Assembly: GCF_004798705.1 (NCBI RefSeq)
Contig: NZ_CP039290.1
Span: 1,178,001-1,242,000 of the forward strand
Origin: Arthrobacter sp. PAMC25564
Lineage (GTDB): Bacteria > Actinomycetota > Actinomycetes > Actinomycetales > Micrococcaceae
Length of the DNA stretch: 64,000 bases
Reading direction: 5' to 3'
Below, piece by piece: positions 41,652 through 47,231 of the stretch; position 1 is the stretch's first letter; each line of letters starts with the position of its first letter. Under the pieces are notes generated by a model. That model had not been told where the DNA came from, did not search any database, and worked only from the letters and a program-made list of their open reading frames with translations. The translations under genes and the position numbers were made by a program.

Positions 41652-42920
41652 CTAGCTCTCCGCCGAGGCAGCGGCCTCGGCGCGGCGCTGGGCCAGCCGG
41701 ATCTCCAGCACGGCATCCATGGCCTGCTGGACCCGGTCCGAGGCGCCTGCCGCGGTGAATTCCTTCTGGGCCTCCTCGAGGTACACCAGGGCCTCGTCGG
41801 CCTGCCCGGCGGCCTTGAGTGCCTTCCCGAGCAGCAGGGATACTTCGCCGGCCGTGTGCCGGGCCAGGGAATCCTTGTCGGCGTGGATCTCGCGCAGCTT
41901 CTGGACCGCCGCCACGATGTCCCCGGTGAGGTAGAGCCACCGTGCCCTGATGAAGGCGACCTCGAGCTCGTCCGTCTTGTTCCCGCCCACGATCGAGAGG
42001 GCCAGTTCGGCGCGTTCGATCGAGGAGAGGGTCTCAGGTTCCACGATCCCGGAGGAGAGCCGGACGGCGGCGGAGGCCTTGTTGAAACGGGCCCAGAGGT
42101 CGATGTCATTCGCGGGGGAGAGCAGCTTGGCGGCGCGCTCGTGGTACTTGATCCCCTCCGGGTAGTCATGGCGCATGAAGGCGACATTGCCGATGACCCA
42201 GGCGACCTCGCCGGCGAGCTGGGACATGGAATGGTCATCCATCTGCCCGTTCATGGCCTGGCAGTACTCCCAGGCCTCGTCCAGCCGCCCGCTTTCGGCC
42301 AGCGCCCCGATCAGCGCCCGCAGCGCGCCGATGACCAGGGTGGAGCCCTGCGGCAGTTCAGCGCACAGCTTCACCGCCTCCTGTGCCTGGTCGACGGCGG
42401 CGGTCAGCTGACCCTGGCCCTGGGACGCGGCCGCCAGCATCTGGCGGGCCCTTACGCCCAGGCCGGCCGACTCGGCGGCCATGGGGTGTTCGAGCAGGTG
42501 CTGGACGATGTCCTTGCACTCCTGCCACAGGCCCTGTTTGATCAGGCATTCGGCCTGCATATAGGTCATGTTCCACCAGGCCGAGGTGTTCTTCGCCTCC
42601 AGGGCAATCCGGGCTGCGGTGGCGGCGTGGGTGGCGGCCACCGGGTAGTCCCGCAGATCCCAGGCCTGGCGGGCGTAGAGTCCGGCGAGCACATATTCGG
42701 CGTCGCTGACGGAGACCGGCTGGCTCCAGGCCTCCAGTGCTTTGGGGGCCAGCTCCAGCCGCCGGGCCAGTTCTTCGATGACATCAGCGGTCGGTTCGCG
42801 GCGGCCGGTTTCGAGCAGCGAGATATAGCTGGGGGAGTACAGGTCCCGGCCCAGCTCCGCCTGTGTCAGGCCGCGTTCAAGCCGTTCCGCGCGGAGCTTT
42901 TCCCCGAATCCGTTCCCCAC
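41652..42920 (-). CDS. HTH-TPR transcriptional regulator, candidate RRNPP-type peptide receptor
   Basis: A 422-residue cytoplasmic protein, no membrane segment. Residues about 6-60 are an Xre/Cro helix-turn-helix (LRAERLERGLTQAELGRDLY, SPSYISLLETGRREPTADVI). Residues about 70-400 are a long run of TPR-like helical hairpins (e.g. WWNMTYMQAECLIKQGLWQE, ALRALIGALAESGRLDEAWE, LSLLLGKALKAAGQADEALV). This HTH + TPR layout and length match the RRNPP class (Rgg, PlcR, NprR, PrgX), which bind imported peptide pheromones. The start is GTG at 42920, preceded by GGAGG. It is divergent from a secreted peptide gene 130 bases away whose C-terminus carries three identical octapeptides. Regulator-ligand pairing is inferred. 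Confidence 0.85.
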   Translation of the reverse strand: MGNGFGEKLRAERLERGLTQAELGRDLYSPSYISLLETGRREPTADVIEELARRLELAPKALEAWSQPVSVSDAEYVLAGLYARQAWDLRDYPVAATHAATAARIALEAKNTSAWWNMTYMQAECLIKQGLWQECKDIVQHLLEHPMAAESAGLGVRARQMLAAASQGQGQLTAAVDQAQEAVKLCAELPQGSTLVIGALRALIGALAESGRLDEAWEYCQAMNGQMDDHSMSQLAGEVAWVIGNVAFMRHDYPEGIKYHERAAKLLSPANDIDLWARFNKASAAVRLSSGIVEPETLSSIERAELALSIVGGNKTDELEVAFIRARWLYLTGDIVAAVQKLREIHADKDSLARHTAGEVSLLLGKALKAAGQADEALVYLEEAQKEFTAAGASDRVQQAMDAVLEIRLAQRRAEAAASAES

Positions 42921-42959
42921 GGATGCCTCCTGATTCCGGACAATCCTTGTACTAAATGC

Positions 42960-42990
42960 TTGACAGGCTCTGTGGAAACCATTTTACAAT
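42960..42990 (+). promoter_or_regulatory. Peptide-gene promoter within a symmetric divergent control region
   Basis: TTGACA (42960-42965) and TACAAT (42985-42990), 19 bases apart, lead to the peptide gene. A mirror-image TGTCAA (42994-42999) supplies a TTGACA on the opposite strand, as a possible -35 for the regulator. TTGTA (42947-42951) and TACAA (42985-42989) form another inverted pair. Together they suggest shared operators for autoregulation. Confidence 0.6.
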
Positions 42991-43050
42991 GTATGTCAAC
43001 AAGAGTAATGCTGACTTGGATCAGGACCCCGACCCATATTGAGGATCTCC

Positions 43051-43260
43051 ATGTTGAAGAAGATCGCAGCTGGCGCCGCTCTGGCGGCCGCACTGGCATT
43101 CTCCGCCGCGGCCCCAGCCGTCCTGTCCGCCAGTTCAAACACTGACACCCCGAGCGTCACTGCGGTCGGGAACTGGCCTGATCCGATGGGCGCGCCCAAC
43201 GCGGTCGGGAACTGGCCCGATCCGATGGCATTCGTCGGCAACTGGCCCGACCCGATGTAG
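43051..43260 (+). CDS. Secreted peptide precursor with three VGNWPDPM repeats (candidate pheromone)
   Basis: A 69-residue precursor. Residues 1-4 (MLKK) are a basic n-region, about 5-25 a hydrophobic alanine-rich core, and about 24-29 a small-residue stretch where Sec signal peptidase could cut. Residues 39-46, 52-59 and 62-69 are identical VGNWPDPM octapeptides, preceded by A, A and F, and the last copy ends at the stop codon. GAGGAT lies at proper distance before the ATG at 43051. A promoter, and a perfect 10-base-stem terminator right after, make it a self-contained unit. It is divergent from an HTH-TPR regulator. It could be a multi-copy peptide pheromone or less likely a small RiPP or secreted antimicrobial; no modifying enzyme or peptidase is adjacent. 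No homologue is recognised. Confidence 0.9.
   Translation: MLKKIAAGAALAAALAFSAAAPAVLSASSNTDTPSVTAVGNWPDPMGAPNAVGNWPDPMAFVGNWPDPM
43165..43257 (+). repeat. Three in-frame 24-base repeats encoding VGNWPDPM
   Basis: Copies at 43165-43188, 43204-43227 and 43234-43257. Their DNA differs only at a few third positions (e.g. gggaac vs ggcaac, gat vs gac), while the eight residues are identical. Synonymous-only difference is what purifying selection on the peptide would leave. Confidence 0.95.
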
Positions 43261-43283: not shown

Positions 43284-43322
43284 GCTCCGGGACGTGCGCG
43301 AACCATGTCCCGGAGCTTTTTT
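43284..43322 (+). terminator. Strong Rho-independent terminator of the peptide gene
   Basis: GCTCCGGGAC (43284-43293) pairs perfectly with GTCCCGGAGC (43307-43316), loop 13 bases, followed by TTTTTT (43317-43322). It begins 23 bases after the peptide stop. Confidence 0.92.
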
Positions 43323-43584: not shown

Positions 43585-45417
43585 TCAGGCCAGCGAGTCT
43601 TTCCAGGCGCCGTGCAGTTGCGCGAAGCGCCCGCCGCCGCCGATCAGCTGGTCCGGGGTGCCGTCCTCGACGATGCGTCCGTCGTGGACCACCAGGACCC
43701 GGTCCGCCGTCTCCACCGTGGACAGCCGGTGCGCAATGATCAGCGCGGTGCGGCCGGCGCCGTTCTCCCGGCCGCCCTGCAGCAGCCCCGCGAGGCCGGC
43801 CTGCACGAGCCGCTCGGATGGGACGTCCAGCGAGGATGTCGCCTCGTCCAGGATCAGGACCGCCGGCCGGGCCAGGAAGGCGCGGGCGAAGCTGATGAGC
43901 TGCCGCTGCCCGGCGGAGACGCGTCCACCGCGCTTGTTGACGTCGGTGTCGTAGCCTTCCGGGAGGGCCATGATGAACCCGTGGGCACCCACCGCCCTGG
44001 CCGCGTCCTCGATTTCCTGCCGGGAGGCTTCCGGACGCCCCAGCGCGATGTTGTCCGCCACGGACCCGCTGAACAGGAAGGCTTCCTGGGTGACCATAAC
44101 GACGTTCCGCCGCAGGTCCGCCGTCGTGAGCTCCCGCAGGTCCACGCCGTCGAGGGTGATCGAGCCGGAGGTGGCATCGTAGAAGCGGGCGATCAGCTTG
44201 GCCAGTGTGGACTTGCCCGCGCCGGTCTGGCCCACCAGCGCCACGGTCTGGCCGGCGGGGATGTGCAGGTCCATCGCGGGGATAATGACCGGCCCGTCGC
44301 CGTAGCGGAACTCGACGCCGTTGAAGTCGATGCTGCCCTTCGCATCGTGCAGGGGCACGGGGTCCACCGGCGGGCGGACGGTCGGCACCTCCTCCAACAG
44401 GCCGGAAACCTTCTCCAGCGCCGCCTGCGCGCTCTGGAACGAGTTGTAGAACATGGCCATCTGGTCCACCGGCTGGAAGAAGCGCTTGGTGGAGAGGATC
44501 AGGGCGAGCAGCACCCCCACCGCGAGTTCCCCGCTGAGCACGCGGAAGCCGCCGGACAGCAGGACGACGGCGACGCAGACGTTCCCGATCAGCACCAGGC
44601 CGGGCTGGAAGATTCCGTTGAGGTTGATCGACCGCACGGTCGCCCTGCGGTAGTCCTCCGAAAGTCCACCATAGCGGGCGGCGTTCCCGCGTTCCTTGCG
44701 GAAGGCCTTGACCGCGCGGATGCCCGTCATGGTCTCCACGAAGTGCACGATCAGCCGGGCCGAGACGACGCGGGACTGCCGGAAGGCGATCTGCGAGTGT
44801 TTCTGGTACCAGCGGGCCAGGAAGAACATCGGCACGCCGGCGCCCAGCACCAGCAGCCCGCTCCGCCAGTCGAGGGCGAACACCGTGGCTGCCGTGAATG
44901 CCATGAACAGCATCCCGGAGGCCAGCGAGCTCACGCCGGAGTCGAGGAGTTCACGCAGGGCCTCCAGGTCCGAGGTCTGCCGGGCGATGATGCGCCCGGA
45001 GGTGTACTTTTCGTGGAATTCCAGGCTCAGCCGCTGGGTGTGCCGGAAAACCCGGACGCGGAGGTCCAGCAGCATCGCCTGGCTGAGTTTCGCCGTCGAG
45101 GTCACGTAGAGGGCCGTCAGGCCCGCCGTGGCGAGGGCCGCGACGAGGTACGCGGCGCCGGTCAGGACCAGCGGCAGGTTGTCGCCCGCGCGCAGCGCCG
45201 GCAGTGCGCGGTCGATCCCGAAGGCGATGAGCGCCGGCCCGGCCACCCGCGCGGCCTGGGAGAGGACGACGGCGGCGATGGTCAGCCAGAACCGGCGCCG
45301 GACGGGGCGGATCAGGGAGCCCAGCAGCGCCAGGGAACGCCGCTGCACGGTTTTGCTCTCGCTCCTGGTGAGGTGCGCGTTGTCCTCGTTGGCGGTGCCG
45401 AAGGTGGTGCTGCTCAT
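43585..45417 (-). CDS. ABC exporter half-transporter (catalytic-site Glu, atypical signature)
   Basis: A 610-residue type IV ABC exporter half. Six membrane helices (residues about 25-320) are followed by the nucleotide domain: Walker [13 protein letters not shown]-loop [11 protein letters not shown], signature RVSAGQRQL (non-canonical VSAGQ), Walker [13 protein letters not shown] with the catalytic Glu, and H-loop IIAHRLSTV. It overlaps by ATGA with the upstream half (45414-45417), so the two make a heterodimer of the multidrug/BmrCD-like type. Cargo unknown. Confidence 0.9.
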
Positions 45418-47231
45418 CGGGAGATCTCCTCGGCCTCGAAGGCTGACAGTTCCGAGTCCAGGTCCCGTGGTTCCTTCGACAGGCTCGCGATCACGTAGCG
45501 GTAGTGGCTGTTCTCCGCGAGCAGCCGGGCGTGCGTTCCGACGGCCGTGATCCGGCCGTCCTCCAGCAGCGCCACCCGGTCCGCCAGGGCCACCGTGGAC
45601 GGCCGGTGGGCCACAATGAGGGTGGTGGTGTCGGTGAGGACCTCGCGCAGCCGGGCTTCGACGCGTTCCTCGGTGTTGACGTCCAGCGCCGAGAGCGGGT
45701 CATCGAGGACCAGCACCCGGGGCCTGGCGGCGATGGCACGGGCCAGCGCGATCCGCTGCCGCTGCCCGCCGGACAGGCTCAGGCCCTCCTCGCCGATGAG
45801 GGTGTCCACGCCGTCGGGCAGGGAGTAGGCGAAGTGCGCCTGGGCGACTTCAAGGGCTTCCGCCAGGGCCGCGTCGCGGTCTTCCTCCGATCCGGCGTCG
45901 GGCGCGCCGAGCAGGACGTTGTCCCGCACCGAACTGGAGAACAGCGTGGTGTCCTCGAAGGCGACAGCGACGACCGTGCGGAGCTCCTCGACGCCGAAGT
46001 CGCGCAGGTCCACGCCGTCGATGGTGATGGATCCCGCCGTGACCTCATAGAGGCGCGGGACCAGCTGGAGCAGGGTGCTTTTGCCGCTTCCGGTGATGCC
46101 GACCAGGGCCATGGTTTCGCCGGGCCGGATCTCCAGCGTGATGTCCTGGAGGACCGGCTTGTCCGGGGCGTCTTCGAAGGCGAAGCCGGCGTGGTTGAAG
46201 CTGAGCGCGCCCTTGAGTTCTTCGGGCCGGCGCGGGTTCTCCGGGCTGGTGATGGTGTTGACCGAGTCCATGACCTCGAAGTGCCGGTCCACGGCGGTCT
46301 TCGCGGTGAGGGCCATGGCCAGCAGGGTGCCGCTGAACTCCACCGGGGCAGCAATGACGGCTGCGGTGGCGAAGAATGCGACCAGGGAGCCGATGCTCAG
46401 CTCGCCGCGGGAAGCCAGTACGACGCCGACGACGAGCCCGGCGCCGAGGGCGAGTTCGGGCAGCAGCGTCACGACCAGGCTGAAGGTGGCCAGGTGCCTG
46501 GCCTTGGCGATCTCGGTCTGCCGGAGCTCCTCGGCTTGTTCGTTGAAGTTCGCCAGGGCCTCCCGGCTGCGGCCGAAGGCCTTGAGCACGCGGATGCCGT
46601 GGACCGACTCCTCGACCGTGGTGGCAAGGTCTCCGGCCTGGTCCTGGCTGCGCCGGGCCACCTTGCTGTAGCGGGTCCGGAACCGGAAGCCGTAGACCAT
46701 GATCGGCACGGCCGCGGCCAGGAAGATCAGGGCCAGCTGCCAGCTCATCGAGAACATCACGACGACGCCGATCGCCACGGTCAGGGTGGTGACCACGAGC
46801 ATGATCGCGCCGAACGCCATCCAGCGGCGGAGGAAGTTCAGGTCCGTCATGGCGCGCGAGAGCAGCTGCCCGGAGCCCCAGCGGTCGTGGAAGGAGACCG
46901 TGAGGTCCTGCAGATGGCCGTAGAGCGAGACCCGCATCCGGGTCTCCACGGTGGTGGCGGGGTTGATGACGAACTGGCGGCGCAGCGCCACGAGGCCGGC
47001 CTCGGCGGCGCCCAGGCCCAGGATCACCAGCGACGCGGTCCACAGCGCCTGGGTGCTTCCGCCGGGCTGCAGGGACCCGTTGATGAGCACGCGCAGCACC
47101 TGGGGGATCGCCAGGGCGACCATGCTCGCCAGCAAGGCACAGAGCAGCCCCATAAAGAGCCGCGGCAAGATCGGCTTCACATGGGGATAGAGGCGGCTGA
47201 TTGAAGAGAAAAACGGAGTCTGCTTGGCCAT
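45414..47231 (-). CDS. ABC exporter half-transporter (degenerate Walker B, canonical signature)
   Basis: A 605-residue ABC exporter half. After six helices the nucleotide domain shows Walker [12 protein letters not shown], signature [16 protein letters not shown] (canonical), Walker [13 protein letters not shown] where the catalytic Glu is Asp, and [11 protein letters not shown]. Paired with the partner's Glu and VSAGQ, the two predict one working and one degenerate ATP site, as in heterodimeric exporters. It is the first gene of the pair; the next start overlaps by ATGA. The putative peptide gene upstream of the tRNA is not in the same transcript. Confidence 0.9.

Follow-up and report, generated by a model that had tools for sequence, protein, structure and literature searches.

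Does an actinobacterium possess a peptide signalling pair that works like the RRNPP systems? In PlcR-PapR and NprR-NprX, a receptor with an N-terminal helix-turn-helix (HTH) domain and a C-terminal superhelix of tetratricopeptide repeats (TPR) is encoded next to a small gene for an exported precursor (PMC10075063; here and below, papers are cited for those parts of them that were available). The question is raised by a locus in a 64,000-nucleotide stretch of Arthrobacter sp. PAMC25564 (contig NZ_CP039290.1, positions 1,178,001 to 1,242,000; hereafter the window), in which the gene of an HTH-TPR protein, the receptor, is divergent from the gene of a small protein, the precursor, that carries the octapeptide VGNWPDPM in three copies. 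The initial annotation of the window had described a 422-residue HTH and TPR protein, which is borne out by the open reading frame (ORF) and by Pfam, and a divergent 69-residue gene with a signal sequence and three octapeptides ending at the stop codon, which the sequence confirms; the interval given for them, 41652..43260, is exact. Its proposal that the two form an actinobacterial RRNPP pair stands in part: conservation, gene pairing, an intergenic block, the predicted fold and a profile match to PlcR support it, and other results described below do not. From the gene pair, its conservation, its codon pattern, the operator-like block, the predicted fold and the presence of importers, we consider it likely that a secreted, repeated pheromone and a cytosolic HTH-TPR receptor constitute an RRNPP-like peptide signalling pair.

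The octapeptide and its precursor

By inspection, the precursor starts with lysines followed by a hydrophobic stretch; it has no match in Pfam. The codons differ among its three VGNWPDPM copies, and a genome-wide search with GGNAAYTGGCCNGAYCC gave three matches, all at the precursor, and none with the reversed control. A receptor-based scan of named genomes yielded 139 confirmed relatives, of which the best 80, with titles naming Arthrobacter, Pseudarthrobacter or Paenarthrobacter, were used. At 80/80 of these loci, the receptor gene is accompanied by a divergent small ORF that contains the motif. Together with our own, these precursors hold 222 copies of the octapeptide (136 IGNWPDPM, 78 VGNWPDPM, 5 IGNWPDPV and 3 with GIWPDPM); [IV]GNWPDPM thus accounts for 214/222, which answers the conservation check suggested by the initial annotation. 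One copy is found in 4 of the 81 precursors, two in 32, three in 26 and four in 19, and the motif reaches the stop codon in 78/81. The precursors of L029, L031 and L048 keep one internal motif, and a tail of the SKPVKDK type replaces the C-terminal copy.

Within precursors, the copies agree over GNWPDPM at 98.9% of residues and 90.3% of bases. Only 19/224 copy pairs are identical in DNA, 111 different 24-base sequences encode the 222 copies, and the linkers between copies, 2 to 24 residues long, are distinct in 97/141 cases. As the octapeptide is near-invariant while codons and linkers vary, selection acts on the short peptide rather than on the DNA. A random repeat lying beside a random regulator, or an annotation artefact, is suggested by the small size of the ORF and by nothing else; conservation with varied codons refutes it, as do the 80/80 pairing, the conserved intergenic block and the class-wide control described below, and its probability is negligible. 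A large protein collection returned 266 relatives of the precursor at E <= 10, and [VITS]GNWPDPM ends 115/120 of the proteins among the matches listed. No signal-type name occurs among the names shown for these relatives, the named ones being mostly hypothetical proteins.

The receptor

The GTG start of the receptor gene is preceded by AGGAGG, and Shine-Dalgarno-like sequences are present at both genes of the pair. The Pfam models HTH_31 (44.6 bits, cut-off 27), HTH_3 and TPR_14 exceed their cut-offs; the remaining TPR models fall below theirs. The AlphaFold2 model (mean predicted local distance difference test score 88.8) contains the HTH helices and eight helix pairs (residues 71-391). The initial annotation had noted no membrane segment in the protein; HTH and helix-pair repeats are all that is visible in this model, and the receptor is presumably cytosolic. 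The traits of RRNPP/RRNPPA systems include (i) a receptor of 250-500 residues with a TPR superhelix, seen here in the size, the TPR_14 match and the model; (ii) an N-terminal HTH domain (or, in Rap, a three-helix bundle), seen in the HTH_31 match; and (iii) an adjoining gene for a Sec-exported propeptide of 10-100 residues, to which the precursor corresponds, its signal-like N-terminus being recognised by inspection and by a hydropathy scan of relatives. Gamma-butyrolactone signalling in actinobacteria, by comparison, has a small-molecule synthase and its receptor; of the two genes of the pair, Pfam assigned HTH and TPR domains to one and nothing to the other.

A profile search with the receptor matched PlcR (E 2.1e-5, residues 5-184), the first non-designed protein listed. 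The predicted fold matches the RRNPPA receptors Rap, NprR, AimR and PlcR (Foldseek/VIA), with the PlcR-PapR7-DNA complex at rank 5 in Foldseek and 14-16% identity in the alignments. Asn245, which the model places on the first of two paired helices, is invariant in the receptor alignment A2 of the order (14/14) and in receptors without an HTH domain (30/30), and is also present in 28/32 receptors that lack a precursor. In RapF, Asn227 on a TPR helix holds the peptide backbone (PMC3601957); Asn245 is a candidate counterpart, short of an established equivalence.

Homologues with and without a precursor

Receptor homologues at E <= 0.001 are found in 250/395 genomes of the family. Along the orthologous locus the motif shifts from VGNWPDPM to VGNWPDPS/A/T/F, VGIWPNS, VWIWPD and VGDWPH (up to eight copies). 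A tandem peptide pattern matches 85/395 family genomes; as precursors with long linkers or with other motifs escape it, this figure is not a count of systems. We then considered a set of 57 distant homologue loci (L116-L171 and L086). A divergent secreted precursor is present at 22/57, and the scan found none at 35/57, paralogues and a nested clade included. A midpoint-rooted tree of the TPR parts of 107 receptors was computed in a single FastTree run. In it, most precursor-less receptors are nested within precursor-bearing groups, the clearest case being a clade of 18; this nesting suggests that they arose by loss of the precursor. The clade of 18 comprises L128, L129, L131, L133, L135, L136, L139, L140 and ten more. 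L128-L163, except L138, L141, L142 and L146, are family receptor homologues with no adjoining precursor, many of them nested among paired ones. Such receptors could sense the signals of others, or could have lost peptide control.

Two results qualify the RRNPP reading. First, generic TPR proteins equal or outscore the RRNPPA receptors in both the fold and the profile matches. We therefore use RRNPP-like for the way the pair would work and not as a statement on its descent. Second, the initial annotation had proposed a search for small ORFs beside homologues of the regulator and held that homologues lacking one would tell against it: such an ORF stands beside every one of the 80 genus orthologues, and the scan found none at the 35 distant loci. 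These many receptor homologues with no adjoining precursor would also suit another explanation, in which the small gene encodes a secreted effector (a surface peptide, an antimicrobial or the precursor of a multi-core modified peptide) and is merely regulated by an HTH-TPR protein that senses something else. Repeated cores do occur in the precursors of modified peptides, and the function assigned to the octapeptide is deduced from sequence. We nevertheless hold the effector explanation to be improbable, in view of the neighbouring genes and of a second receptor class presented below.

The shared intergenic block

The likely signalling pair shares an intergenic region containing a block (Table 1) in which TGTCAACA closely follows the -10-like TACAAT, and TTGACA (42960-42965) and TGTCAA (42994-42999) form an inverted repeat flanking TACAAT. 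Among the distinct sequences of our own and the 80 related loci, most columns of the block are conserved and its flanks are variable. The spacer between TTGACA and TACAAT is of 19 bases (window 42960-42990) instead of the usual 17, a spacing shared by most genus loci in the alignment, and a scan for consensus promoters with 16-18 base spacers returned none at the block. Allowing up to 3 mismatches, the core of the block occurs once in the genome. With the same tolerance, the core is found in 14/16 of the distant loci with an HTH receptor and a precursor, in 0/33 of those with an HTH receptor and no precursor, and in 0/8 HTH-less loci, with or without precursor. We read this block as a putative operator at which the HTH receptor would exert autoregulation.

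Table 1. Features of the receptor-precursor locus (positions in the window).
Feature	Position	Strand	Details and basis
HTH-TPR receptor/regulator gene	41652..42920	-	422 residues; GTG start; Pfam matches and AlphaFold2 model
HTH domain, receptor residues 5-64	42729..42908	-	Pfam HTH_31, 1.8e-11
Operator/promoter-like block	42959..43002		CTTGACA-N19-TACAAT..TGTCAACA; alignment of own and 80 loci
Putative secreted pheromone precursor gene	43051..43260	+	69 residues from ATG; stop TAG 43258-43260
Sec-type signal sequence, residues 1-26	43051..43128	+	Cleavage near LSA; by inspection
VGNWPDPM copy 1	43165..43188	+	Sequence
VGNWPDPM copy 2	43204..43227	+	Sequence
VGNWPDPM copy 3	43234..43257	+	Reaches the stop codon; sequence
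Intrinsic terminator of the precursor transcript	43284..43322	+	13-pair stem 43284-43316, then T run

Neighbouring genes and proposed mechanism

The locus is flanked by the genes of phosphoribosylglycinamide synthetase (purD) and SAICAR synthetase (purC) and by those of two ATP-binding cassette (ABC) transporters; as these combine membrane domains with ATPase domains, we term them exporters. The purC gene and the first ABC gene are each present in 79/80 loci. The order purD-purC-receptor-precursor-ABC pair is retained in 5/5 first-class loci of other genera (16-18 kb examined), the receptors of which are 76, 66, 63, 53 and 47% identical to ours, and a tRNA-Pro gene lies beyond the precursor in 9/11 first-class loci checked. 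In the window, the two adjacent ABC genes (43585-47231) are convergent with the precursor gene beyond tRNA-Pro; this ABC pair is present in five other genera as well. At the gathering score, Rfam recognised only a tRNA in the window; in seven related loci it gave a tRNA and three matches under the cut-offs. In the genera examined, the locus is old and fixed in the chromosome beside the purine genes. Against a modified-peptide effector, no modification enzyme was seen among the conserved neighbours considered, namely the purine genes, tRNA-Pro and the ABC exporter pair.

The initial annotation had noted that no oligopeptide importer is encoded in the window. This holds for SBP_bac_5 genes, and eight such oligopeptide-binding import proteins are encoded elsewhere in the genome. 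For the signalling pair we infer export, processing, import, binding and regulation as follows. The precursor would be exported via Sec and cut by signal peptidase, extracellular proteases would then release several [VI]GNWPDPM molecules per precursor, and, as in RRNPP/RRNPPA systems, oligopeptide permeases would re-import the octapeptide. Inside the cell it would, again as in those systems, bind to the TPR superhelix in its concave groove; this would alter the DNA-binding state of the HTH domain, which would act on the promoter shared by the two genes in an autoregulation that may be activating or repressing. The pair is probably an overlooked peptide language, cell-to-cell or self-directed. 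A special case of this signalling, not exclusive with it, is a pump-probe or self-timing circuit in which the peptide leaves and re-enters the same cell and would report on export, proteolysis or the growth state rather than on population density. For Bacillus, pump-probe networks that use intracellular peptide receptors have been described (PMC7055314), and a locus fixed beside purine genes would agree with such a role. However, nothing here separates self-timing from quorum sensing, and the divergence of motifs from clade to clade is what selection for private signals could produce; we consider the self-timing case rather unlikely.

A second receptor class without HTH domain

The system extends beyond what the initial annotation had seen. 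A paralogue of the receptor is encoded in the same genome (4064076-4065098 of the contig), with 41% identity to it from residue 67 on. It has no Pfam family at E <= 0.001, yet the receptor profile matches it at 4.8e-90. Divergent beside it is a 50-residue secreted ORF with VNWWPN. The precursors of this class carry one to six copies of xx[WYS]WP[NDKH], mostly GWWPN, GWWPD or NWWPN, and further HTH-less loci (L401-L407) have a precursor in 7/7 cases. In the tree, 22 HTH-less sequences form one clade (support 0.99). By anatomy only, the split between the two classes mirrors that between HTH regulators and Rap in Bacillota. At L419:5639-8559, a second gene lies beside the HTH-less receptor; the precursor opposite this gene has three VGNWPDG copies, and the one opposite the receptor ends in DDWPH. 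This arrangement is perhaps a tandem duplicate of pairs.

These receptors bear on the effector explanation, in which the HTH-TPR protein merely regulates the small gene. Pfam finds no HTH domain in the paralogue and two relatives (3/3 checked), and still a precursor faces the receptor at 29/30 of the best HTH-less loci in the genus (L371-L400). Furthermore the motif differs by receptor clade, as judged by inspection and not by a formal test.

Leaderless open reading frames

Thirteen genomes of the genus (G009, G366, G375, G123, G341, G369, G353, G800, G806, G227, G824, G244 and G823; loci L177, L189, L183, L184, L178, L196, L191, L342, L343, L344, L347, L354 and L359) have an extra ORF of about 44-83 residues with GNWPDP motifs and, by inspection, no signal sequence. 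In 12/13 it follows a same-strand gene for a secreted proline-rich protein ending in DPG[SC][SR]PD; this ending was not seen for G823. Pfam finds nothing in three of these proline-rich partners. A search for the partner matched 26/81 genomes, with many matches short and of low complexity, so that this count was not used; in our own genome the partner query matched weakly (E 0.008), and the peptide pattern is confined to the receptor-precursor pair.

Six of the leaderless ORFs also contain a motif of the second class. It is identical to the motif of the second pheromone in three (IGWWPD in G824 and G244, IGWWPN in G123); the expected identity failed in the other three (IGYWPD in G341 and IGFWPD in G369 versus IGWWPN, and IGWWPR in G823 versus SGWWPK). 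The remaining 7/13 have no second-class motif. Through the leaderless ORFs, one or both signals could arise in the cytoplasm and there switch on or titrate the receptors of the producing cell. Alternatively, their product may be exported by another route, for which leaderless streptococcal peptides offer a precedent (PMC10518010).

Relatives beyond the family

In a class sample, the tandem pattern matched 8/394 genomes, of which two belong to our own genus, one to another genus of the family and five to other families; from the letters matched, we read these five and the single family match as chance, and breadth beyond the family was therefore judged from receptor loci. As to phage origin, at least 120 stretches of viral contigs match a loose tandem pattern, which we take as chance; no viral receptor search was made. 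Within the order, homologues of the VGDWPH-type receptor (E <= 1e-20) are present in 18/297 genomes, three of them in another family. One of these three loci has three VGGSWPT copies (its receptor is 28% identical to the query), one an ORF ending in DTWPA, and one nothing.

A profile built from 14 diverse receptors matched 54/335 genomes of the class at E <= 1e-20, 48 of them outside the order, and the best-scoring 24 of these 48 were taken as the class-wide set (L448-L471). A divergent small secreted ORF is present at 16/24 of these HTH-TPR loci, with Trp-Pro near the C-terminus in 10/24 (e.g., ALNWPKCC, QPDWPGMCC, ASPWQWPI or two DI[EG]WP copies). Several of the ORFs end in Trp-Pro-x-Met-Cys-Cys or another Cys-Cys. 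Such an ORF lies beside 1/167 control genes (Fisher p 1.5e-16 versus 16/24), at a score cut of 2.7 that was chosen after seeing the loci and that all 16 reach. The control genes come from 18 regions, of which 16 surround loci of the set of 24 and two surround loci of the order's other family; the corresponding figure of 16/18 is biased, as it omits eight of the 24 loci (seven of them precursor-less) and adds two, and 16/24 is preferred. An earlier control covered 99 long ORFs (the window and L416-L423); its five positives were three receptors, one gene beside the L419 receptor and one unrelated gene. The class-wide group is distant from the receptors of the order: it does not retain Asn245.

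Tentatively, and with slightly more doubt than trust, we propose a class-wide superfamily of WP pheromones, with an HTH-TPR branch and an HTH-less, Rap-like branch, divergent secreted precursors and signals that centre on Trp-Pro, in many cases as repeats. A third, leaderless polyprotein, present in part of the genus, would make the signal intracellularly, in some genomes both signals at once, and so address or mute the two receptors of its own cell without export.

Discussion

Like PlcR-PapR and NprR-NprX of the Bacillus cereus group, the pair associates an HTH and TPR receptor with a small precursor gene; unlike them, it belongs to another phylum, is divergent, usually has 2-4 signal copies, shows eight helix pairs in the receptor model and has a Trp-Pro core motif. 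Several pheromone copies per secreted precursor are shared with Phr105 and Phr3T of Bacillus phages, in which the tandem copies are preserved and the remainder of the precursor drifts (PMC11343458). In themselves, tandem copies are thus already known from Bacillus, and because of Phr105 and Phr3T, yeast alpha-factor, which the initial annotation had named as the closer parallel, is not the nearest one. Rap-Phr tandem systems belong to Bacillota and phages, unlike the actinobacterial pair. Rap resembles the second receptor clade in lacking an HTH domain; in Rap a three-helix bundle replaces it (PMC9765709), whereas the alignment of our HTH-less proteins with the HTH receptor begins only at about residue 62-81 of the latter.

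The leaderless GNWPDP ORFs recall RopB/LCP of Streptococcus, in which the pheromone ORF has no signal sequence (PMC10518010). However, SIP is an 8-residue ORF, the mature peptide itself, and the ORFs of the 13 genomes are longer and repeat the signal of a secreted precursor encoded elsewhere in the genome. AloR-AloP of Paenibacillus likewise comprises many paralogous HTH-TPR/peptide pairs, but in a Bacillota host and with the peptide encoded downstream of its receptor; the available part of that paper does not mention repeated signals (PMC7425212).

Neither GNWPDP nor NWPDPM was found in the literature searched; preprints and most subscription journals lie outside its scope, so an earlier report is possible. 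Judged from titles and the starts of abstracts, the papers listed for RNPP together with actinobacteria apparently do not treat such receptors there. The RRNPP_detector survey covers Firmicutes and viruses and describes actinobacterial signals as typically small molecules (PMC10075063), and the scope of PMC9765709 and PMC12700828 is likewise Firmicutes/Bacillota. For quorum sensing in Actinobacteria, a 2016 review names gamma-butyrolactones and cyclic or modified peptides and, in its available part, neither RNPP nor PlcR (PMC4748050); a 2026 review presents RRNPP for Bacillus and other Firmicutes (PMC13220807). Within the literature searched, three features are new: occurrence in this phylum, a Trp-Pro signal family that comprises an HTH and an HTH-less branch, and leaderless copies of the signal.

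The literature describes cytosolic receptors of linear peptide pheromones from Bacillota and their phages, and the surveys, in their available parts, are confined to these. If the proposed signalling is true, a large bacterial group would gain an unread peptide language, with the pair in 80/80 loci of the Arthrobacter group and relatives across the class. The octapeptides are concretely identified and open to synthesis, and the HTH-less and leaderless branches would represent natural experiments on how such systems diversify.
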